NCBI GenBank assembly: GCA_009781635.1
Contig: WQXU01000006.1
Coordinates: forward strand, 1 to 64,000
Direction of reading: 5' to 3'
Source of the DNA: Treponema sp.
Lineage (GTDB): Bacteria; Spirochaetota; Spirochaetia; Treponematales; Breznakiellaceae
Length of the DNA stretch: 64,000 nucleotides
The notes under the pieces were generated by a model. It was given only the letters and a program-made list of their open reading frames with translations. It made no database searches and was not told where the DNA came from. How positions within the stretch are numbered: the stretch's first letter is position 1; each line of letters starts with the position of its first letter. Both the position numbers and the translations under genes were made by a program. Of this stretch, positions 3,131-11,232 are shown in pieces.

Positions 3131-3285
3131 TCCTTTCGGCTCCTACGGACCGCAAAAAAGTTTCGAGTCCCGATTGTTTAGAGTATTTTTTCCATTAATT
3201 AAAATATCTAAATTGAAAAACTTTTTTTTACTTTTGACAGACGCAGGACTCACCTCCAGCTCCAGATGCTAGGTGTACCTTATTC
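3131..3285 (-). repeat. Left copy of tRNA-Arg 3' end plus trailer (att-like direct repeat)
   Basis: Same orientation and order as the right-hand copy at 11056-11175: the tRNA-Arg 3' end (GACAGACGCAGGACTC at 3236-3251), an AT-rich trailer containing AAAATATCTAAATTGAAAAA, an inverted T-arm copy TTTCGAGTCCC (3161-3171) and the motif TTTCGGCTCCTACGGACCGC (3133-3152). The tRNA portion is degenerate and cannot fold, which is what a distal attachment-site remnant would look like. Only the right copy has the intact tRNA. Confidence 0.75.
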
Positions 3286-3540: not shown

Positions 3541-6204
3541 ATGCTGACTTGCTTCAAGATTCTCAGTAAACAAGTAAAAAGAAAAGTAAAAGAAGTAATA
3601 ACATCACTTATTATTGCCGGATTATTTACTGTCATTTTTTCCGCTTGCTCAGCGCAACCGCAAATTTTGCAACAAAGTATACTGCGCAATCCGCAGTCAA
3701 ACTCAAACCCGTTCACATCATACTTGGACATACCTGGTTTAATGAAAAATGAAATCGAAGCCATCAAAGCATTACAAGCAGAGTATGATTATTTTGTTTT
3801 GGGTATGCACCCAACAACCGAAATTTTTGTGGCAAACGGCGAAATAAAAGGATATGCCGCATTATTGTGCGATTGGTTGACCGGGTTGTTTGGTATAACT
3901 TTCGTTCCCCGTATTCTAAACTGGAGTGACCTTATTTCGGGTTTGGAATCTCATGAAATAAACTTTACTGCTACATTGTCTCCCACAGAAGAACGCCGCA
4001 GAACATATATAATGACAGATGCCATTGTATGGCACACCATATCATATTTTACACTAACAGATTCAATACCGTTAGCCGAAATATCAACCCATAGTGTTCC
4101 CCGTTACGCTTTCCTTGAAGGGTCAATTATTTACAAAGAAGTGTCCCCGTTTATTTCCTACCCGTTTGAAGCGGTTTTTATCAGCGATTATGATACTGCA
4201 TATAAAATGCTCAAGAATGGCGAAATAGATGTATTCTTTGATAAAAACACAGCCGAAGGATCTTTTGAGGATTCAGCGCGGGAAACTTCGTTGCAAAATG
4301 CGCGGGAAACTTCGTTGCAAAATGCGCGGGAAACTTCGTTGCAAAATGCGCGGGAAACTGCGTTGCAAAATGTGCACATTAAAAACCATGATTTTTATCC
4401 GCTTATTTATATACCAATGTCCCTGGCAACACAAAACCCCGCACTTGAGCCGATTATTTCGGTGGTTCAAAAAGCATTACATGCAGGAGTTGTTCAATGT
4501 TTAGTTGAGTTGTATATCAAAGGTCATCAAGATTATTTATATTACACATTACAATCACGCCTTACTGCGGAAGAAAAACGATACATAAGCGAAAACCCTG
4601 TTATAAGAGTCGCTATGGAAACCAGTAATTATCCTGTCTCGTTTTTTAATGAACGCGAAAACGAATGGCAGGGTATCGCCATTGATATATTAAATGAAAT
4701 CGGGAGATTTACCGGGCTTCATTTTGAAAATGCAAACGATATAGACGCTGCCTTTGCTGATTTGTTAAGACTAACAGAAAACGGAGAAGCGGCAATTATA
4801 ACCGAAGTGTTCCGAACGCCTGAAAGGGAAAAGCAGTTTCTCTTACCTGACATTTCCTATATGACTGTTTACCCTGCGCTGATATCAGCATCAAACCACC
4901 GTAACATTACATTAAATGAAATATTGTATATGAGAATCGGTTTAATAGAAAATTATAGTCAAACCGCCTTGTTTAATCAGTGGTTCCCCAATCATTACTA
5001 TGTTAAATATTTTGACAGTAACTTGTCTGCGTTTAACGCGCTCGACCGGGGTGAGTTAGATATGGTTATGACAAGCAGCCATGACTTATTAATTCTAACG
5101 CATTATTTGGAAAGACCGGGATATAAATTGAACTTTATGTTCGATTACAGTTTCGAGTCAACATTCGGCATAAACCGAAACGACGCTGCCTTGCATTCAA
5201 TTATTAATAAATCATTGGATATTTTAAATACAACAATAATTTCGGAACAATGGGTATCACGGACATTCGATTACCGTGCGAATATTTTGGAAGCTCAGTT
5301 ACCGTGGATTTATGGAACAGGCGCACTGCTTCTGCTGCTTTTGATTGTGCTTCTGCTTTTAGTCATCTTTTTTTACAGGAAAACCGTTATAGAGAAAGCT
5401 GCACACCAGGCGGAACTTGCTAAAGGACATGCAGAAGCTGTCGCAGAAGCGATGAGAGCAGGTATCGAATACGCAGGCACTATCCAAACAAATACGCTGC
5501 CCCCTGACAATGACCTGGAAAAAATATTTTCCGATTATTCTATTATCTGGAAACCTCGTGACGGTGTGGGCGGCGATATATATTGGATGAAGAATTTCGA
5601 CAATGGCACGGTATTTTGCGTTTGTGACTGTACAGGACACGGAACACCAGGAGCATTGCTGACCATGCTGGTTGTCAGTGCGTTCGAGTCTGTGATAAGA
5701 CAAAACAACTGCCACAATACTGCCCACACAGTATGGGAATTGGAAAAACGGCTTTATAATGTTTTCAATGTTTCCGGAAGAAACGAAGAAGACTTAAAAG
5801 ACGGTTGTGACCTGGCTGTGTTGTTTATTGCAAAAGACGGAAATATTACTGTTTCTGCCGCTAACACCGATGTTTTTGTTTGCGACGGTAATGAAGTCAT
5901 GCGTTATAGAGGACAAAGGATATTTATAGGTGAAGGCAATATAAAGAGTGAAGATAATATTAAAACCGTTTATATTACAGCCAATCCCAATAATAAATAT
6001 TATATCGCTTCTGACGGATTGTATGACCAGCCAAGCCCTGTCTGCAGAGGCTCCTTCGGGTATAAGAGATTTAGTGAACTTATCCTGGCTCACCACAATG
6101 AGAAGTTATCTGTTATATCTGATAAGGTATGGGAAGCTTTTGAAGCCCATCGCGGCAGCTTCGTTCGCGTAGATGATTTCCAGTTAATCACATTTAAGTT
6201 GTAA
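3541..6204 (+). CDS. SiaA-type PP2C phosphatase with two periplasmic solute-binding sensor domains
   Basis: 887 residues. A hydrophobic N-terminal segment ends in a lipobox-like IFSAC. Two bacterial extracellular solute-binding (SBP family 3) domains follow, about 65-330 and 345-585, then one membrane helix (LPWIYGTG plus a Leu-rich run, about 587-615), a short coiled coil, and a SpoIIE/PP2C serine/threonine phosphatase domain (about 660-887). Metal-site motifs are VGGDIYW, CDCTGHGTPGALL, DGCDLAVLF, DGLYDQ and VDDF. In the Pseudomonas SiaABCD pathway, SiaA dephosphorylates SiaC. Here the HAMP/Cache input is replaced by ligand-binding lobes, so an amino-acid-like ligand is a plausible but inferred signal. 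Four in-frame 24-bp repeats interrupt the first sensor domain (residues 246-277). AAGGAG lies 10 nt before the ATG. Confidence 0.85.
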   Translation: MLTCFKILSKQVKRKVKEVITSLIIAGLFTVIFSACSAQPQILQQSILRNPQSNSNPFTSYLDIPGLMKNEIEAIKALQAEYDYFVLGMHPTTEIFVANGEIKGYAALLCDWLTGLFGITFVPRILNWSDLISGLESHEINFTATLSPTEERRRTYIMTDAIVWHTISYFTLTDSIPLAEISTHSVPRYAFLEGSIIYKEVSPFISYPFEAVFISDYDTAYKMLKNGEIDVFFDKNTAEGSFEDSARETSLQNARETSLQNARETSLQNARETALQNVHIKNHDFYPLIYIPMSLATQNPALEPIISVVQKALHAGVVQCLVELYIKGHQDYLYYTLQSRLTAEEKRYISENPVIRVAMETSNYPVSFFNERENEWQGIAIDILNEIGRFTGLHFENANDIDAAFADLLRLTENGEAAIITEVFRTPEREKQFLLPDISYMTVYPALISASNHRNITLNEILYMRIGLIENYSQTALFNQWFPNHYYVKYFDSNLSAFNALDRGELDMVMTSSHDLLILTHYLERPGYKLNFMFDYSFESTFGINRNDAALHSIINKSLDILNTTIISEQWVSRTFDYRANILEAQLPWIYGTGALLLLLLIVLLLLVIFFYRKTVIEKAAHQAELAKGHAEAVAEAMRAGIEYAGTIQTNTLPPDNDLEKIFSDYSIIWKPRDGVGGDIYWMKNFDNGTVFCVCDCTGHGTPGALLTMLVVSAFESVIRQNNCHNTAHTVWELEKRLYNVFNVSGRNEEDLKDGCDLAVLFIAKDGNITVSAANTDVFVCDGNEVMRYRGQRIFIGEGNIKSEDNIKTVYITANPNNKYYIASDGLYDQPSPVCRGSFGYKRFSELILAHHNEKLSVISDKVWEAFEAHRGSFVRVDDFQLITFKL
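4276..4371 (+). repeat. Four tandem 24-bp in-frame repeats inside siaA1
   Basis: Four head-to-tail 24-bp units (4276-4299, 4300-4323, 4324-4347, 4348-4371) begin GCGCGGGAAACTTCGTTGCA and end AAAT. The first three are identical; the fourth has one change (ACTTCG to ACTGCG). Each is translated as ARETSLQN (last unit ARETALQN). The unit is 8 codons long, so frame is kept. Related units occur at 7518-7589 (inverted) and 10160-10207. Confidence 0.97.
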
Positions 6205-6222
6205 TAGACAGGAGTTAATTTC

Positions 6223-6963
6223 ATGGAAATAGATATTTATGAAGAAGAACAGAAAATATATGATGAAGCGGCTGCTCGTGTTTTGGAAATTAAAAACGGA
6301 GCGCATTTTGATTTTGCTGAATACGCAAAACTCACAAAAGAGTACGGAGGAATCCTAAAGCAGCTCCGCCGGATTACCCGAATTACCGATCGCACCGCAA
6401 GGGGTCTGCATGAGAACAATTTGGATTTAACCGACAAGGTACATTATGATGCGCTGACCGGGATTTATAACAGACGCTTTATGGAAGATAACTTGAAGCG
6501 GATTATAAAAACATTATCACGTTCTGCCGGCAGCGAACTTAGCGTATTGATGATGGATATTGACTTTTTCAAGAAGTACAACGACACATACGGACACAGC
6601 GAAGGCGATATTTGCTTAAAAGCAATCGCAGAAACTATAACGGAATGCCTGTTACGCCCCGATGATTTCGTGGCCAGATACGGCGGCGAGGAATTTGTTG
6701 TAATCCTGCCTAACACCGATGAAAGCGGAGCACGTGTCATGGCAAATAAAATCCTCGCTAACATTCAGGCAAAAAACATTCCTCATGAAAAAAATGAAGT
6801 TGCAAGTTGTGTAACCACCTCAATTGGAATTACGACAAGTGAAGTAAAACGAGGACAAGAAGGAAGCGCTTATATAAAACGAGCTGATGAAGCGTTGTAT
6901 GTGTCAAAGCAAAACGGCCGTAACCGGTATACCTTTATAGAATTAAAAGGGGAAGAAGTATGA
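6223..6963 (+). CDS. SiaD-like GGDEF diguanylate cyclase
   Basis: 246 residues, cytoplasmic, with no membrane segment. An N-terminal helical region (about 1-80) precedes a GGDEF domain with the active-site motif GGEEF (about residue 154) and an inhibitory I-site RPDD five residues upstream, so it should make c-di-GMP and be subject to product inhibition. Size and the absence of a sensor match SiaD of Pseudomonas, which is activated by unphosphorylated SiaC. The gene lies between siaA1 and siaB1, overlaps siaB1 by ATGA (6960-6963) and is preceded by CAGGAG. It is the only cyclase in the islet and so could be the shared output of both Sia modules. Confidence 0.88.
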   Translation: MEIDIYEEEQKIYDEAAARVLEIKNGAHFDFAEYAKLTKEYGGILKQLRRITRITDRTARGLHENNLDLTDKVHYDALTGIYNRRFMEDNLKRIIKTLSRSAGSELSVLMMDIDFFKKYNDTYGHSEGDICLKAIAETITECLLRPDDFVARYGGEEFVVILPNTDESGARVMANKILANIQAKNIPHEKNEVASCVTTSIGITTSEVKRGQEGSAYIKRADEALYVSKQNGRNRYTFIELKGEEV

Positions 6964-7607
6964 AGATGGATATTGAGCAATACAATGAAATGCTGAATAA
7001 AAATAACATCGGCGTTATTTACAGCGGCCCGATTTGGTCGGATGGCATTGACGGCATGGCGGAGATTATGAAAAAACGGCTTGAATTTGATGATATGCCT
7101 TACACCGCATCTAAATCCGTATTCTCGATTTTTGTTGAACAAATCAATAATATGATGATGTATTCGGCGGAAAAGGAAAAAAAAATAAACGCAGAGAGAT
7201 GCGAAACGGAAATAGTAAAGGGTGTTTTTATTTTAGGGCTTCAAGAAGACACATATTTTATTCAAACCGGGAATTTAGTAACGAACAGCAACGCCGAAAT
7301 TCTTAAAAAGCGAATTGACCACCTTAACTCCCTTGATAAAAAACAACTGCGCCAATACCATAAAGAGCGAATGAATGCTGAAAACGATAATCCGGAAAGT
7401 CATGGCGCGGGGATTGGACTTATCGAAGTGGCGCGACGCTCGACTTCCCCTATTGAATACTCTCTTAATCCTCGCGGTGATAAAATGCAATATTTTACAA
7501 TGTATTTAACCGTAACACATAATGCAACGGAGTTTCCCGCGCATAATGCAACGGAGTTTCCCGCGCATAATGCAACGGAGTTTCCTGTACAAGGAGGTAA
7601 GTTATAA
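6960..7607 (+). CDS. SiaB-like kinase (first copy), with repeat-extended C-terminus
   Basis: 215 residues, matching the SiaB/DUF6272 family, which phosphorylates SiaC. The motif GAGIGLIEVARR (about 142-153) resembles the G-box of GHKL ATPases, and NNMMMYSAE marks the N-terminal helix. It aligns throughout with the second copy (9944-10549): shared stretches include YSGP-W-DGIDGMAE, RIDHLN-LD and GAGIGLIEVARR. The paralogue stops after YVTI, whereas this protein continues past YLTVT with three HNATEFPA-type units encoded by the inverted 24-bp repeat, then VQGGKL. The start overlaps the cyclase stop (ATGA). The stop overlaps the siaC1 start (TAATG), consistent with translational coupling. Confidence 0.82.
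   Translation: MKMDIEQYNEMLNKNNIGVIYSGPIWSDGIDGMAEIMKKRLEFDDMPYTASKSVFSIFVEQINNMMMYSAEKEKKINAERCETEIVKGVFILGLQEDTYFIQTGNLVTNSNAEILKKRIDHLNSLDKKQLRQYHKERMNAENDNPESHGAGIGLIEVARRSTSPIEYSLNPRGDKMQYFTMYLTVTHNATEFPAHNATEFPAHNATEFPVQGGKL
7518..7589 (-). repeat. Three tandem 24-bp repeats in reverse orientation at the 3' end of siaB1
   Basis: Three 24-bp units (7518-7541, 7542-7565, 7566-7589), each starting CATAATGCAACGGAGTTTCC. The reverse complement CGCGGGAAACTCCGTTGCA matches the units at 4276-4371 with about three differences per 24. They are translated in frame as HNATEFPA, twice, then HNATEFPV. The last unit has diverged in its final bases just before the ribosome-binding site (AAGGAGG) of siaC1. 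Confidence 0.95.
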
Positions 7608-7987
7608 TGGCATTCTATTTAGAAAAAGAAAAAACGTTTTCAACCCCTTACATCATTATAGATGAGAAAAAAGGCTACATGAAAATGGAAGGACAATGCT
7701 TCCATGAAAATGTTGTTGTATTATTCAAAGAAATTAACGATTGGTTAGACATTTATCTTAAAACAGATTTCGGTTTGTTTACCTTTGACTGCGACATTGA
7801 ATATTTGAACAGCTCTACTTTAAAGCTGTTAAATGTTTTACTGTTAAAACTTGATAAGCATTCCTGTGAAAATAATAAAATTATCGTAAACTGGATTACA
7901 ATTGAAGAAGATGACATAATGATTGAGTGCGGTGAGGATTATCAAGAGGAAATGGAAAGTTTAAAATTTAATTTACTTACAAAGTAA
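7607..7987 (+). CDS. SiaC-like switch protein (first copy; DUF1987)
   Basis: 126 residues, the normal length of SiaC/DUF1987 proteins. In the Pseudomonas pathway SiaC is phosphorylated on a threonine by SiaB, dephosphorylated by SiaA, and binds SiaD only when unphosphorylated. The segment YLNSSTLKLL contains the likely phosphoacceptor region; Ser69 and Thr71 are conserved in the second copy (YFNSATSKLL). AAGGAGG lies about 8 nt upstream of the ATG, and the start overlaps the siaB1 stop. The phosphosite is inferred from family knowledge. Confidence 0.85.
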   Translation: MAFYLEKEKTFSTPYIIIDEKKGYMKMEGQCFHENVVVLFKEINDWLDIYLKTDFGLFTFDCDIEYLNSSTLKLLNVLLLKLDKHSCENNKIIVNWITIEEDDIMIECGEDYQEEMESLKFNLLTK

Positions 7988-8028
7988 TAACATCTGATAA
8001 AAAATCATTTTTAAGGAGACTTAGAATA

Positions 8029-9927
8029 TTGTTAAAAACAATCCGCATGAAACTCTTGTTGCCCATTCTGTGCGCCATCATCATGGGCAGCTTAATAATT
8101 GGTATCGTTGGATACCGGCTTGCGGCGGACATTGTTATCGGCGCGTTTGAAGAAGACGGGGTGCGCTCTGCAAGTTATCTGCGCGAATACATGGATATGG
8201 TCATAAGCAAAGCGGAACTTGATTTGTCCGCGCTTTCTGTTGCTCCGTCTGTTAAGTATCTTTTGCAAGGGGATGAAGCATCCGAAGAACTGGTAGAGGG
8301 CTACATAATGGCGCTTGTAGACCAGCACGGCATCTATAACAGCATAACTATCCTAAATACCAAAGGTATCATCGTTGCAAGCACCTCCGGCAGTACAGGC
8401 GGGGATAGAAGCAACAGGGAATACTTTCAAGATAACATGAAAGGTTTGTTCCATATCTCCGGGGTCGAGTTGAGCCGCCAGACCGGACGGCTTGCTACAT
8501 TTATCTCCATACCAATACGTAACATGGATGACGGTGCTATAATTGGCGCGGCGCTGACTGTCATCAGACTTGAAGAGCTTAACGCCCGTTATGTTGTTCC
8601 TGTTAATCTGTTGGGCAGCCACGGCTATGCAATGGTTGTATCGGGTGAAGGTGAAATCATCGCGCACAGAGATGAGAATATGATTTTAGACCCCGGCAAT
8701 GAAGAACGCTCTGAAACTGACGGCATCGTTACTGAGGAAACGCGCAAGCATCTTTTGACTGTAACTGAAGGCGGCGGCAGTATTGCGTTTAATACAACAA
8801 TGGACGGTGTGAACTTTAGGGCTTTTGCGGAGCGCAGCCATTATACAGACTGGTATGCTGTTGTGATTTGCCCTATCAGCGAGTTTTATGAAGCGGCATA
8901 TGGATTAGCCTGGACAACCGCCATTCTCATTATTGCCGTTATTCTGTTTATCATGGTAATTATATTGATTGCAGTTAACGGAGTAACAAAAGCATTAAGT
9001 ACCACAATCCGCTATGCCGACACTGTCGAGAAAGGCGAGTTAGATACGCAGCTTTATGTAAAGCGTGATGATGAAGTTGGAGTTTTAGCAGATTCCTTAC
9101 GCGGTATGGTCGGAAAATTGAAAACAATGATAGATGAAGCAAAAGCGACTTCGGCAACGATTATGGCGGGTATAAATTATGCCAGCAAAATTCAAGGCGA
9201 CCTTCTTCCTAAGAATCAAGCCTTTAATAAAGCGTTCAAAGACTATTCAATCATATGGAAACCGCGGGATATAGTAGGCGGCGATATATTCTGGTTAAAA
9301 AACTTTGAGGGCGGAACTATACTTTGTGTTTGCGACTGCACAGGTCACGGAGCACCCGGTGCAATGCTGACAATGCTTGTCGTGTCCGCTTTTGAGGATA
9401 TGGTGAATGAAAGCAACTGCCATGATACTGCAGGCATTATATTCAATCTTGAGCAAAGACTTGTAGATGGGTTTGGCGTTGAAGCTCTTGAAAAAGGGCT
9501 TGCAGGCGCAGACATACATGATGGTTGCGACCTGGCAGTTCTTTTCATAAAAAAAGATGGAGCTATCAATCTATCTTCTGCTAATATGCCAGTATTCATC
9601 TGTAACGGAAAAGAGGTCAACCATATCAAAGGTCAGCGGCTCTGTATAGGCGAAGGTATATTGAAAAACAAAGACGAAATCAAAACGGTATTTATCCCCG
9701 CCTGTAGAGACAATAAGTATTACATTGCATCCGACGGATTATTTGATCAACCCGGCGGAAAAGAGAAAATTATACCATTCGGTTACAGGCAGTTCAAAGA
9801 AATAATATTGAAAAATCACAATGAAAGCCAGGATATTATTTCCGACAAAATATGGACTGCATTTGAAGATTACAGGGGATTCGAGCCGAGGGTCGACGAC
9901 CTTGAGTTAATTACTTTTAAACCGTAG
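8029..9927 (+). CDS. SiaA-type PP2C phosphatase with dCache and HAMP (second copy)
   Basis: 632 residues. A membrane helix (about 8-30), a periplasmic dCache-like sensor (about 35-290), a second helix (about 293-316), HAMP (317-370), and a SpoIIE/PP2C phosphatase domain (about 402-632) with VGGDIFW, CDCTGHGAPGAML, DGCDLAVLF, DGLFDQ and VDDLELITF. This is the canonical SiaA architecture. The catalytic half closely resembles siaA1 while the sensor differs entirely, so the two modules appear to share an output but sense different cues. The start is TTG at 8029, placed by AAGGAG 10 nt upstream; an ATG at 8047 is less well spaced. Confidence 0.88.
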   Translation: MLKTIRMKLLLPILCAIIMGSLIIGIVGYRLAADIVIGAFEEDGVRSASYLREYMDMVISKAELDLSALSVAPSVKYLLQGDEASEELVEGYIMALVDQHGIYNSITILNTKGIIVASTSGSTGGDRSNREYFQDNMKGLFHISGVELSRQTGRLATFISIPIRNMDDGAIIGAALTVIRLEELNARYVVPVNLLGSHGYAMVVSGEGEIIAHRDENMILDPGNEERSETDGIVTEETRKHLLTVTEGGGSIAFNTTMDGVNFRAFAERSHYTDWYAVVICPISEFYEAAYGLAWTTAILIIAVILFIMVIILIAVNGVTKALSTTIRYADTVEKGELDTQLYVKRDDEVGVLADSLRGMVGKLKTMIDEAKATSATIMAGINYASKIQGDLLPKNQAFNKAFKDYSIIWKPRDIVGGDIFWLKNFEGGTILCVCDCTGHGAPGAMLTMLVVSAFEDMVNESNCHDTAGIIFNLEQRLVDGFGVEALEKGLAGADIHDGCDLAVLFIKKDGAINLSSANMPVFICNGKEVNHIKGQRLCIGEGILKNKDEIKTVFIPACRDNKYYIASDGLFDQPGGKEKIIPFGYRQFKEIILKNHNESQDIISDKIWTAFEDYRGFEPRVDDLELITFKP

Positions 9928-9943
9928 CAAAGGAGGTTTTAAA

Positions 9944-10549
9944 ATGAAAATTGATATGTTGCAATACAACAAAATGCTTATGGAAAATAACATCTCCATC
10001 ATCTACAGCGGTCCCTTGTGGGCGGACGGAATCGATGGGATGGCAGAGTTTCTTCAAAGGCGGCTTCATATGGACGATATGACGTTAAGTGCGTCACAGT
10101 CTGTTTTTTCAGTCTTTGTCGAGCAATTGAACAATATGTTGATGTATTCAACTGAAAATGCGCGGGAAACTTCGTTGCAAGATGCGCGGGAAACTTCGTT
10201 GCATAATGCAGAAGCCGACTGTTCGGAAAAAGCAAAATCAAATATACCAAAAGGCATCTTTTTGATGGGCAAGCATGATAATAAGTACTTTTTACAAACA
10301 GGTAATTACATGAAAAGCTGCAGCGTAGAGCTTTTGAAAAATCGAATTGACCATTTGAATACGCTTGATAACCAACAGTTGCGGCAGTTCATGAAAGATC
10401 AAAGAAGAGCTGAAGATGATAATCCCGATAGCAAAGGTGCAGGAATAGGGCTTATTGAAGTGGCGAGGCGAGCTACATCCAAGATTGATTATGAGTTTAT
10501 TCCATGTGAAGACGGATTCACTTATTTCACTATATATGTGACGATATAG
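9944..10549 (+). CDS. SiaB-like kinase (second copy), with internal repeat insertion
   Basis: 201 residues, paralogous to 6960-7607. It keeps the GHKL-like GAGIGLIEVARR motif and ends at YVTI, the family-like C-terminus. After MLMYSTEN it carries two 24-bp repeat units, translated ARETSLQD and ARETSLHN, at a position where the first copy has none. The insertion is probably a surface loop. AAAGGAGG lies about 8 nt before the ATG. It follows siaA2 by 16 bp and precedes siaC2 by 12 bp. No second siaD is present. Confidence 0.82.
   Translation: MKIDMLQYNKMLMENNISIIYSGPLWADGIDGMAEFLQRRLHMDDMTLSASQSVFSVFVEQLNNMLMYSTENARETSLQDARETSLHNAEADCSEKAKSNIPKGIFLMGKHDNKYFLQTGNYMKSCSVELLKNRIDHLNTLDNQQLRQFMKDQRRAEDDNPDSKGAGIGLIEVARRATSKIDYEFIPCEDGFTYFTIYVTI
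10160..10207 (+). repeat. Two 24-bp in-frame repeats inside siaB2
   Basis: Units 10160-10183 and 10184-10207 start GCGCGGGAAACTTCGTTGCA, the same orientation and reading phase as in siaA1 (ARETSLQ). The second unit ends TAAT instead of AGAT, making its last bases like the reversed units in siaB1. Confidence 0.95.
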
Positions 10550-11055: not shown

Positions 11056-11158
11056 GCCTTTCGGCTCCTACGGGCCGCAAAAAAGTTTCGAGTCCCAATT
11101 GGTTAGAGTATTATTACAATAATTAAAATATCTAAATTGAAAAATTAGTTCTAACCTT

Positions 11159-11175
<17 letters not shown>
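11056..11175 (-). repeat. Right copy of tRNA-Arg 3' end plus trailer (att-like direct repeat)
   Basis: Matches 3131-3251 in order and orientation. It includes TTTCGGCTCCTACGGGCCGC, TTTCGAGTCCC (11086-11096, an inverted copy of the T-arm at 11169-11178 with a 72-nt gap), TTAGAGTATT, AAAATATCTAAATTGAAAAA and the tRNA 3' end. Next to the inverted T-arm, AATTGGTTAGAG resembles a tRNA D-loop. Confidence 0.75.

Positions 11176-11232
<57 letters not shown>

Follow-up and report, generated by a model that had tools for sequence, protein, structure and literature searches.

A 24-bp repeat unit that interrupts three sia genes of a Treponema genome is probably a very small non-autonomous mobile hairpin, similar to REPs and to Rickettsia palindromic elements (RPEs), which amplifies in tandem and is kept within genes. 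The support is comparative throughout: between related genomes, GCGCA-like sites have gained 24n bp, arrays have grown in tandem, units have dispersed and a short hairpin covaries. Few mobile-looking elements as small as this unit are known inside bacterial genes, and a literature search found no earlier description of it in Treponema. Most of what is known of mobile palindromes within genes comes from Rickettsia, where the mechanism has been open for 25 years. The present element is far smaller; its sharply defined empty sites, identifiable target and range of 0 to 141 copies in close species make gain, target choice, tandem growth and protein tolerance measurable, and its insertions amount to a natural scan of housekeeping enzymes with 8-residue inserts.

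Tandem arrays in the sia islet

The window, a stretch of 64,000 nt from contig WQXU01000006.1, contains three arrays of the unit, each within a gene of the sia islet:

4276-4371, + strand: array 1, four 24-bp units in siaA1; 96-bp insertion compared with its sister genome, G017
7518-7589, - strand: array 2, three inverted units at the 3' end of siaB1; 72-bp insertion, placed at 7516-7587 in the alignment
10160-10207, + strand: array 3, two units inside siaB2; 48-bp insertion relative to G017
3541-6204, + strand: siaA1-like gene, host of array 1; SBP_bac_3 domains and SpoIIE-type phosphatase
6960-7607, + strand: siaB1, host of array 2; SiaB family protein kinase (DUF6272)
9944-10549, + strand: siaB2, host of array 3; SiaB family protein kinase (DUF6272)

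The nine units and their coordinates agree with those of a first-pass annotation of this DNA, and its gene names are confirmed as far as the families go, by NCBIfam (SiaB family kinase, SiaA-type phosphatase domain) and by Pfam (SiaC). TRF assigned a period of 24 to all three arrays, and the 20-bp core of the unit, GCGCGGGAAACTTCGTTGCA, was matched eight times in the window with at most three mismatches, compared with 0 expected in shuffles. The third and last unit in siaB1 is degenerate (...TTTCCTGTACA). All three ORFs remain open across the arrays, each unit corresponding to 8 codons, which are translated as ARETSLQN in siaA1 and siaB2 and as HNATEFPA in siaB1.

The sister genome G017, with 86-91% DNA identity over the islet, is without all three arrays, and the gaps in its alignment to the source genome measure exactly 96, 72 and 48 bp. 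The empty sites read GAGGATTCA/GCGCGTATTAG in siaA1, GTAA/TACAAGGAGG in siaB1 and GTTGAAAAT/ACAGAAATAG in siaB2, the slash marking the junction. No other SiaB homologue in the protein alignments of the genus contained the siaB2 insert or the siaB1 tail, and the ARETSLQN block was missing from all six SiaA1 homologues. Empty sites and homologues without inserts together show that the arrays were gained in the source lineage and are insertions, not ancestral sequence. The proposal that a repeat had entered these genes in either orientation, each time with the frame preserved, and had recently expanded in tandem is supported. The opposite reading, a repeat ancestral in these proteins and lost elsewhere, is hardly conceivable: no evidence in its favour was found, no insert is present in the SiaB, SiaA1, Der and hydratase homologues compared within the genus, and the units are near-identical while their flanks have diverged. 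It is refuted by the sister-genome and homologue alignments, and the octapeptide is neither an old part of Sia proteins nor the product of a repeat found nowhere else in the genome.

The islet itself is flanked by direct repeats at window positions 3132-3251 and 11057-11175 (72 and 65 nt, identity 85-88%). Of the two, the right-hand one extends into tRNA-Arg(ccg) at 11159-11232 (- strand), which together with the direct repeats suggests that the islet was inserted or duplicated at the tRNA.

Copy number, host genes and reading frames

Unit counts are based on pattern searches, which yielded 29 units in the source genome at up to three mismatches, including two lone three-mismatch matches. Outside the islet, the arrays of this genome are:

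contig C7: two arrays in one histidine-kinase gene, in two frames (NATQFPAQ and SCNEVPRA)
contig C29: five units in a histidine kinase gene
contig C36, L011:156-295: six-unit array, seemingly intergenic, between the halves of another inverted repeat

The islet arrays are clustered but not exclusive, as they account for three of the seven arrays of the source genome. The view that the repeat is tied to a single pathway or islet is not supported, with 141 units spread across the housekeeping genes of a congener. Every source-genome array within a clear gene sits in a signalling protein, which is not the case in that congener (G007). The 39 other genomes of the genus carry between 0 and 141 units each; beyond the genus, counts were close to a reversed-pattern control, and bulk copy numbers are confined to the genus. 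The richest genome, G007 (94% complete), is the MAG Treponema sp. Crp329_bin9, which, judging by isolate codes, may come from a termite or cockroach gut. One unit was found in a response-regulator-like gene (L105) on a short contig labelled Oscillospiraceae (Co191P1bin31), and this occurrence in the bin of another phylum may be due to misbinning or transfer. Phages and plasmids were dismissed as vehicles, since the short queries had no exact match in viral contigs and matched neither phages nor plasmids.

In gut treponemes, many unrelated genes are invaded mid-gene, essential ones included. The hosts in G007 comprise purN, fabD, hflX, mutS2, der, folC, fmt, argJ, cysS, truA, mnmA, hisC, rnhB and a gene for an aconitase-like hydratase, and in Spirochaetia bacterium MS495-2 metH and pyrK are occupied. 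HisC carries exactly 8 additional residues relative to its solved homologue, while the Der insert consists of two units within a linker of variable length. In rnhB (RNase HII, L112), three fresh units are accompanied by an apparent old, decayed one (ALETTLHN, ~577-596) inside a 13-residue insertion. Dominant ORFs contain 69 of the 78 arrays at G007 loci, at a crude coding fraction of 0.92, which shows neither a clear avoidance of genes nor a clear preference for them. No strand bias relative to GC skew was detected (37 vs 30).

All six reading frames are used by the 93 arrays within dominant ORFs (24/23/18/10/10/8), and the spacers TAA, TGA and TTA never occur in frames where they would create a stop. 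Use of every frame in both orientations excludes selection for one peptide. ARETSLQN and HNATEFPA, the two peptides given in the first-pass annotation, are indeed present in the sia proteins, but they are only two of the six translations in use. A functional octapeptide, with ARETSLQN-type repeats useful as adaptor, linker or phase-variable length, would fit the signalling proteins that carry the source-genome arrays and the differing unit number at one kinase. It is strongly disfavoured and highly improbable given six peptides from six frames and both orientations, hosts that are unrelated enzymes, and positions that resemble loops, linkers and ends, where nearly anything is tolerated. Arrays are enriched in the first fifth and last tenth of the protein, where 48 of the 93 lie.

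Hairpin, insertion site and differences between species

The unit consists of the invariant core and a 4-bp spacer, the sequence of which depends on the locus (AAAT, AGAT, TTAT, TAAT and others). On the hairpin strand it reads THW-TGC-AAC-GNA-GTT-TCCCGC-GCA, with an interrupted stem of 3+3 bp (6 bp total). In diverged copies, AAC/GTT is replaced by AGC/GCT or AAT/ATT, and TGC/GCA by TAC/GTA or TCC/GGA. Among 71 distinct units, collected by similarity and with related copies counted several times, we counted 25 double-compensated cells compared with at most 7 for slid pairings, and none of 500 shuffles matched the covariation score. We relied on covariation because the folding energy was not significant: the main-family hairpin has a weak predicted value of -0.7 kcal/mol, no better than shuffles, and energy was dropped as evidence. 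The loop base that varies freely occupies the central position of a GNA triloop; triloops of this class are known to form very stable DNA mini-hairpins.

The spacer is more variable than the core, and simple copying of one master unit does not explain this. The flanks of the unit are WDAT and YYYT, and the core lacks a GTAG or CGTC tag. While the common spacers AAAT and AGAT leave all six frames open, TAAT, TTAT and TGAT do not. As about 5% of shuffled 24-mers share this openness, it is suggestive only and was discarded as proof of adaptation.

Flank profiles of 114 arrays revealed G at position +5 (96), C at +6 (89) and G at +7 (69) on the 3' side of the unit, following its 24th base and corresponding to GCGCA on the hairpin strand, and a T precedes the unit at its 5' end in 103 of 112. 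The motif pre-exists in empty sites, as GCGCG in siaA1 and as GCGC, GGCA or CGCA in G007 genes. Single-unit gains in G007, at two sites of the hydratase gene and in a second gene, amount to exactly 24 bp or 8 residues relative to orthologues and are precise at both ends. Each insertion thus adds 24n bp at a pre-existing GCGCA-like site, the motif being strongest at its last CA. The entry point on the hairpin strand lies 3' of this motif, and the unit's own last bases are GCGCA. After insertion, the site motif (GCA to GCGCA) stands on both sides, although the unit itself ends in these bases, and no parent IS of the kind from which a MITE derives was found; target choice, microhomology or a short target duplication may explain the pattern. 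A conventional 4-bp target duplication taken from the spacer was rejected as a general rule, because spacers before and after a unit agreed little more than in shuffles (182 vs a mean of 156 and a maximum of 176).

Unit number and orientation differ between species at several loci. The kinase gene on C29 holds five units in the source genome and one at the identical site in G021, and an HK gene is filled in G013 and empty in G021. Orthologous hybrid kinases of G021 and G013 (L093:4002-4021, L144:1219-1238) have one unit each, in opposite orientation, a few bases apart and both in frame, which may reflect an insertion hot spot or inversion in place. The 20-mer is identical in species whose orthologous genes differ by ~10-30%, pointing either to recent acquisition by each lineage separately or to exchange among lineages.

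Proposed mode of spread and related repeats

We propose that the hairpin unit disperses into GCRCA (GCGCA-like) sites; the empty sites show that exactly 24 bp are gained and that the motif comes to lie on both sides. A subset of insertions subsequently grows by head-to-tail amplification in 24-bp steps, as the five versus one units at the same kinase site show. Genic insertions would rarely be destructive, because 24 equals 3 x 8 and the frames can be read without stops. From the positions of the arrays we infer that insertions into loops, linkers and protein ends persist, survival depending on tolerance of 8-residue inserts. Recognition of the hairpin would call for an enzyme, and we tentatively favour an HUH-like one that acts in trans, now or formerly, since a hairpin plus a fixed short motif at both the insertion point and the 3' end of the element is the trace expected from single-strand transposition of the IS200/IS605 (HUH) type.

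The searches linked no HUH-type gene to the unit, and no transposase gene flanked by the unit was found. Between 13 and 15 units are present in G021, G022 and G014, which have no Y1_Tnp match, while G009 has three Y1_Tnp genes and no units; moreover, no unit lies within ~1.5 kb of any of 30 Y1_Tnp loci. A RAYT/Y1 transposase was rejected as the cause for lack of flanking units and of an association with copy number. A reverse transcriptase is likewise unlikely, as the richest genome, G007 with its 141 units, has no RVT_1 match. An enzyme-free route is a serious rival, even if we judge it unlikely: template switching or illegitimate recombination at GCGCA microhomology by the cell's repair machinery, followed by slippage, would account for the missing transposase, for a target motif equal to the unit's end bases, for the common tandem arrays and for the clustering of sites in G007 (8 gaps below 1 kb vs 2.2 expected). 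However, such copying does not require a covarying hairpin, and it sits poorly with gains of exactly one 24-bp period with both ends precise at single sites and with a 20-mer unchanged across species with diverged orthologues. Less likely than not is a far-reaching version of the mobile-hairpin reading, in which a selfish 24-nt ssDNA hairpin would be the smallest transposing unit known, with its 8-codon length, stop-free frames and GCGCA target selected for genic life, and would be moving actively in gut treponemes via an undescribed enzyme.

Among known repeats, intragenic REPs and RPEs are the closest kinds in the way the unit works. RPEs are ~105-150 bp long, have long palindromic stems and encode a conserved peptide (Ogata et al. 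2000/2002, reviewed in PMC2229807, PMC10969869). The early comparison with them is borne out insofar as both are short palindromic DNA that interrupts numerous unrelated and often conserved protein genes without a frame shift, are common to related species and have no known autonomous partner. In contrast, our unit has 24 bp, its 6-bp stem is interrupted, and it is read in all six frames instead of as one conserved peptide; it forms in-register tandem arrays and resides in a spirochaete instead of Rickettsia. REPs with a GTAG or CGTC tag (Di Nocera et al. 2013, PMC3733652) are 20-40 bp hairpins, some of them intragenic and encoding extra residues; certain families (CGTC) have no known transposase, and a number of species carry tandem clusters. 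The unit shares with them the size class, the covarying hairpin and many dispersed copies (141 in G007). It differs in having no such tag in or beside it, in its mostly genic location at about coding density, whereas REPs are predominantly extragenic, in its regular 24-bp head-to-tail arrays and in not flanking RAYT genes. By length, tag, location, peptide and RAYT flanking, it is therefore not filed as a member of either class.

PARCEL repeats, a 25-residue protein motif found largely in membrane-targeted proteins (PMC2996958), are similarly intragenic, tandem, possibly mobile and of dyad symmetry at the DNA level, but the unit spans 8 residues and has no conserved peptide. With intragenic VNTRs or minisatellites it has in common the head-to-tail units, a number that varies by species and a length that is a multiple of 3; it is set apart by the presence of one unit at dozens of unrelated loci and by precise single-unit empty and filled sites.

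Several other repeats were observed in these genomes. The RAYT-like Y1 genes (L218, which is G000 C6:110522-110860, as well as L212 and L221) are flanked by repeats of the form GTAGTGT...CACCATATATAGCG, apparently their own GTAG-type REPs. A second 24-bp family (SPSEASRE) occurs at L010:8504-8603 on C29, in the kinase gene with the five-unit array; it shares the inner hairpin (GGAAGCTTCGCTG), but its outer stem, TCCC/GGGA, differs. A version of 21 bp lies in a kinase-like gene on contig C1 (L180). Related repeats in G008 (L258-L275, CCTGCTGGAAGCTTCGCTGCAAGACC...) have longer conserved flanks and are mostly outside long ORFs; about 15 of 18 of this GGAAGCTTCGCTG type are not in a long ORF, unlike the main unit. 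The G007 MAG also contains separate 23-bp tandem arrays (L099:950-1064, L120:5216-5352, L067:493-604), an unrelated repeat class with a period that is not a multiple of 3.
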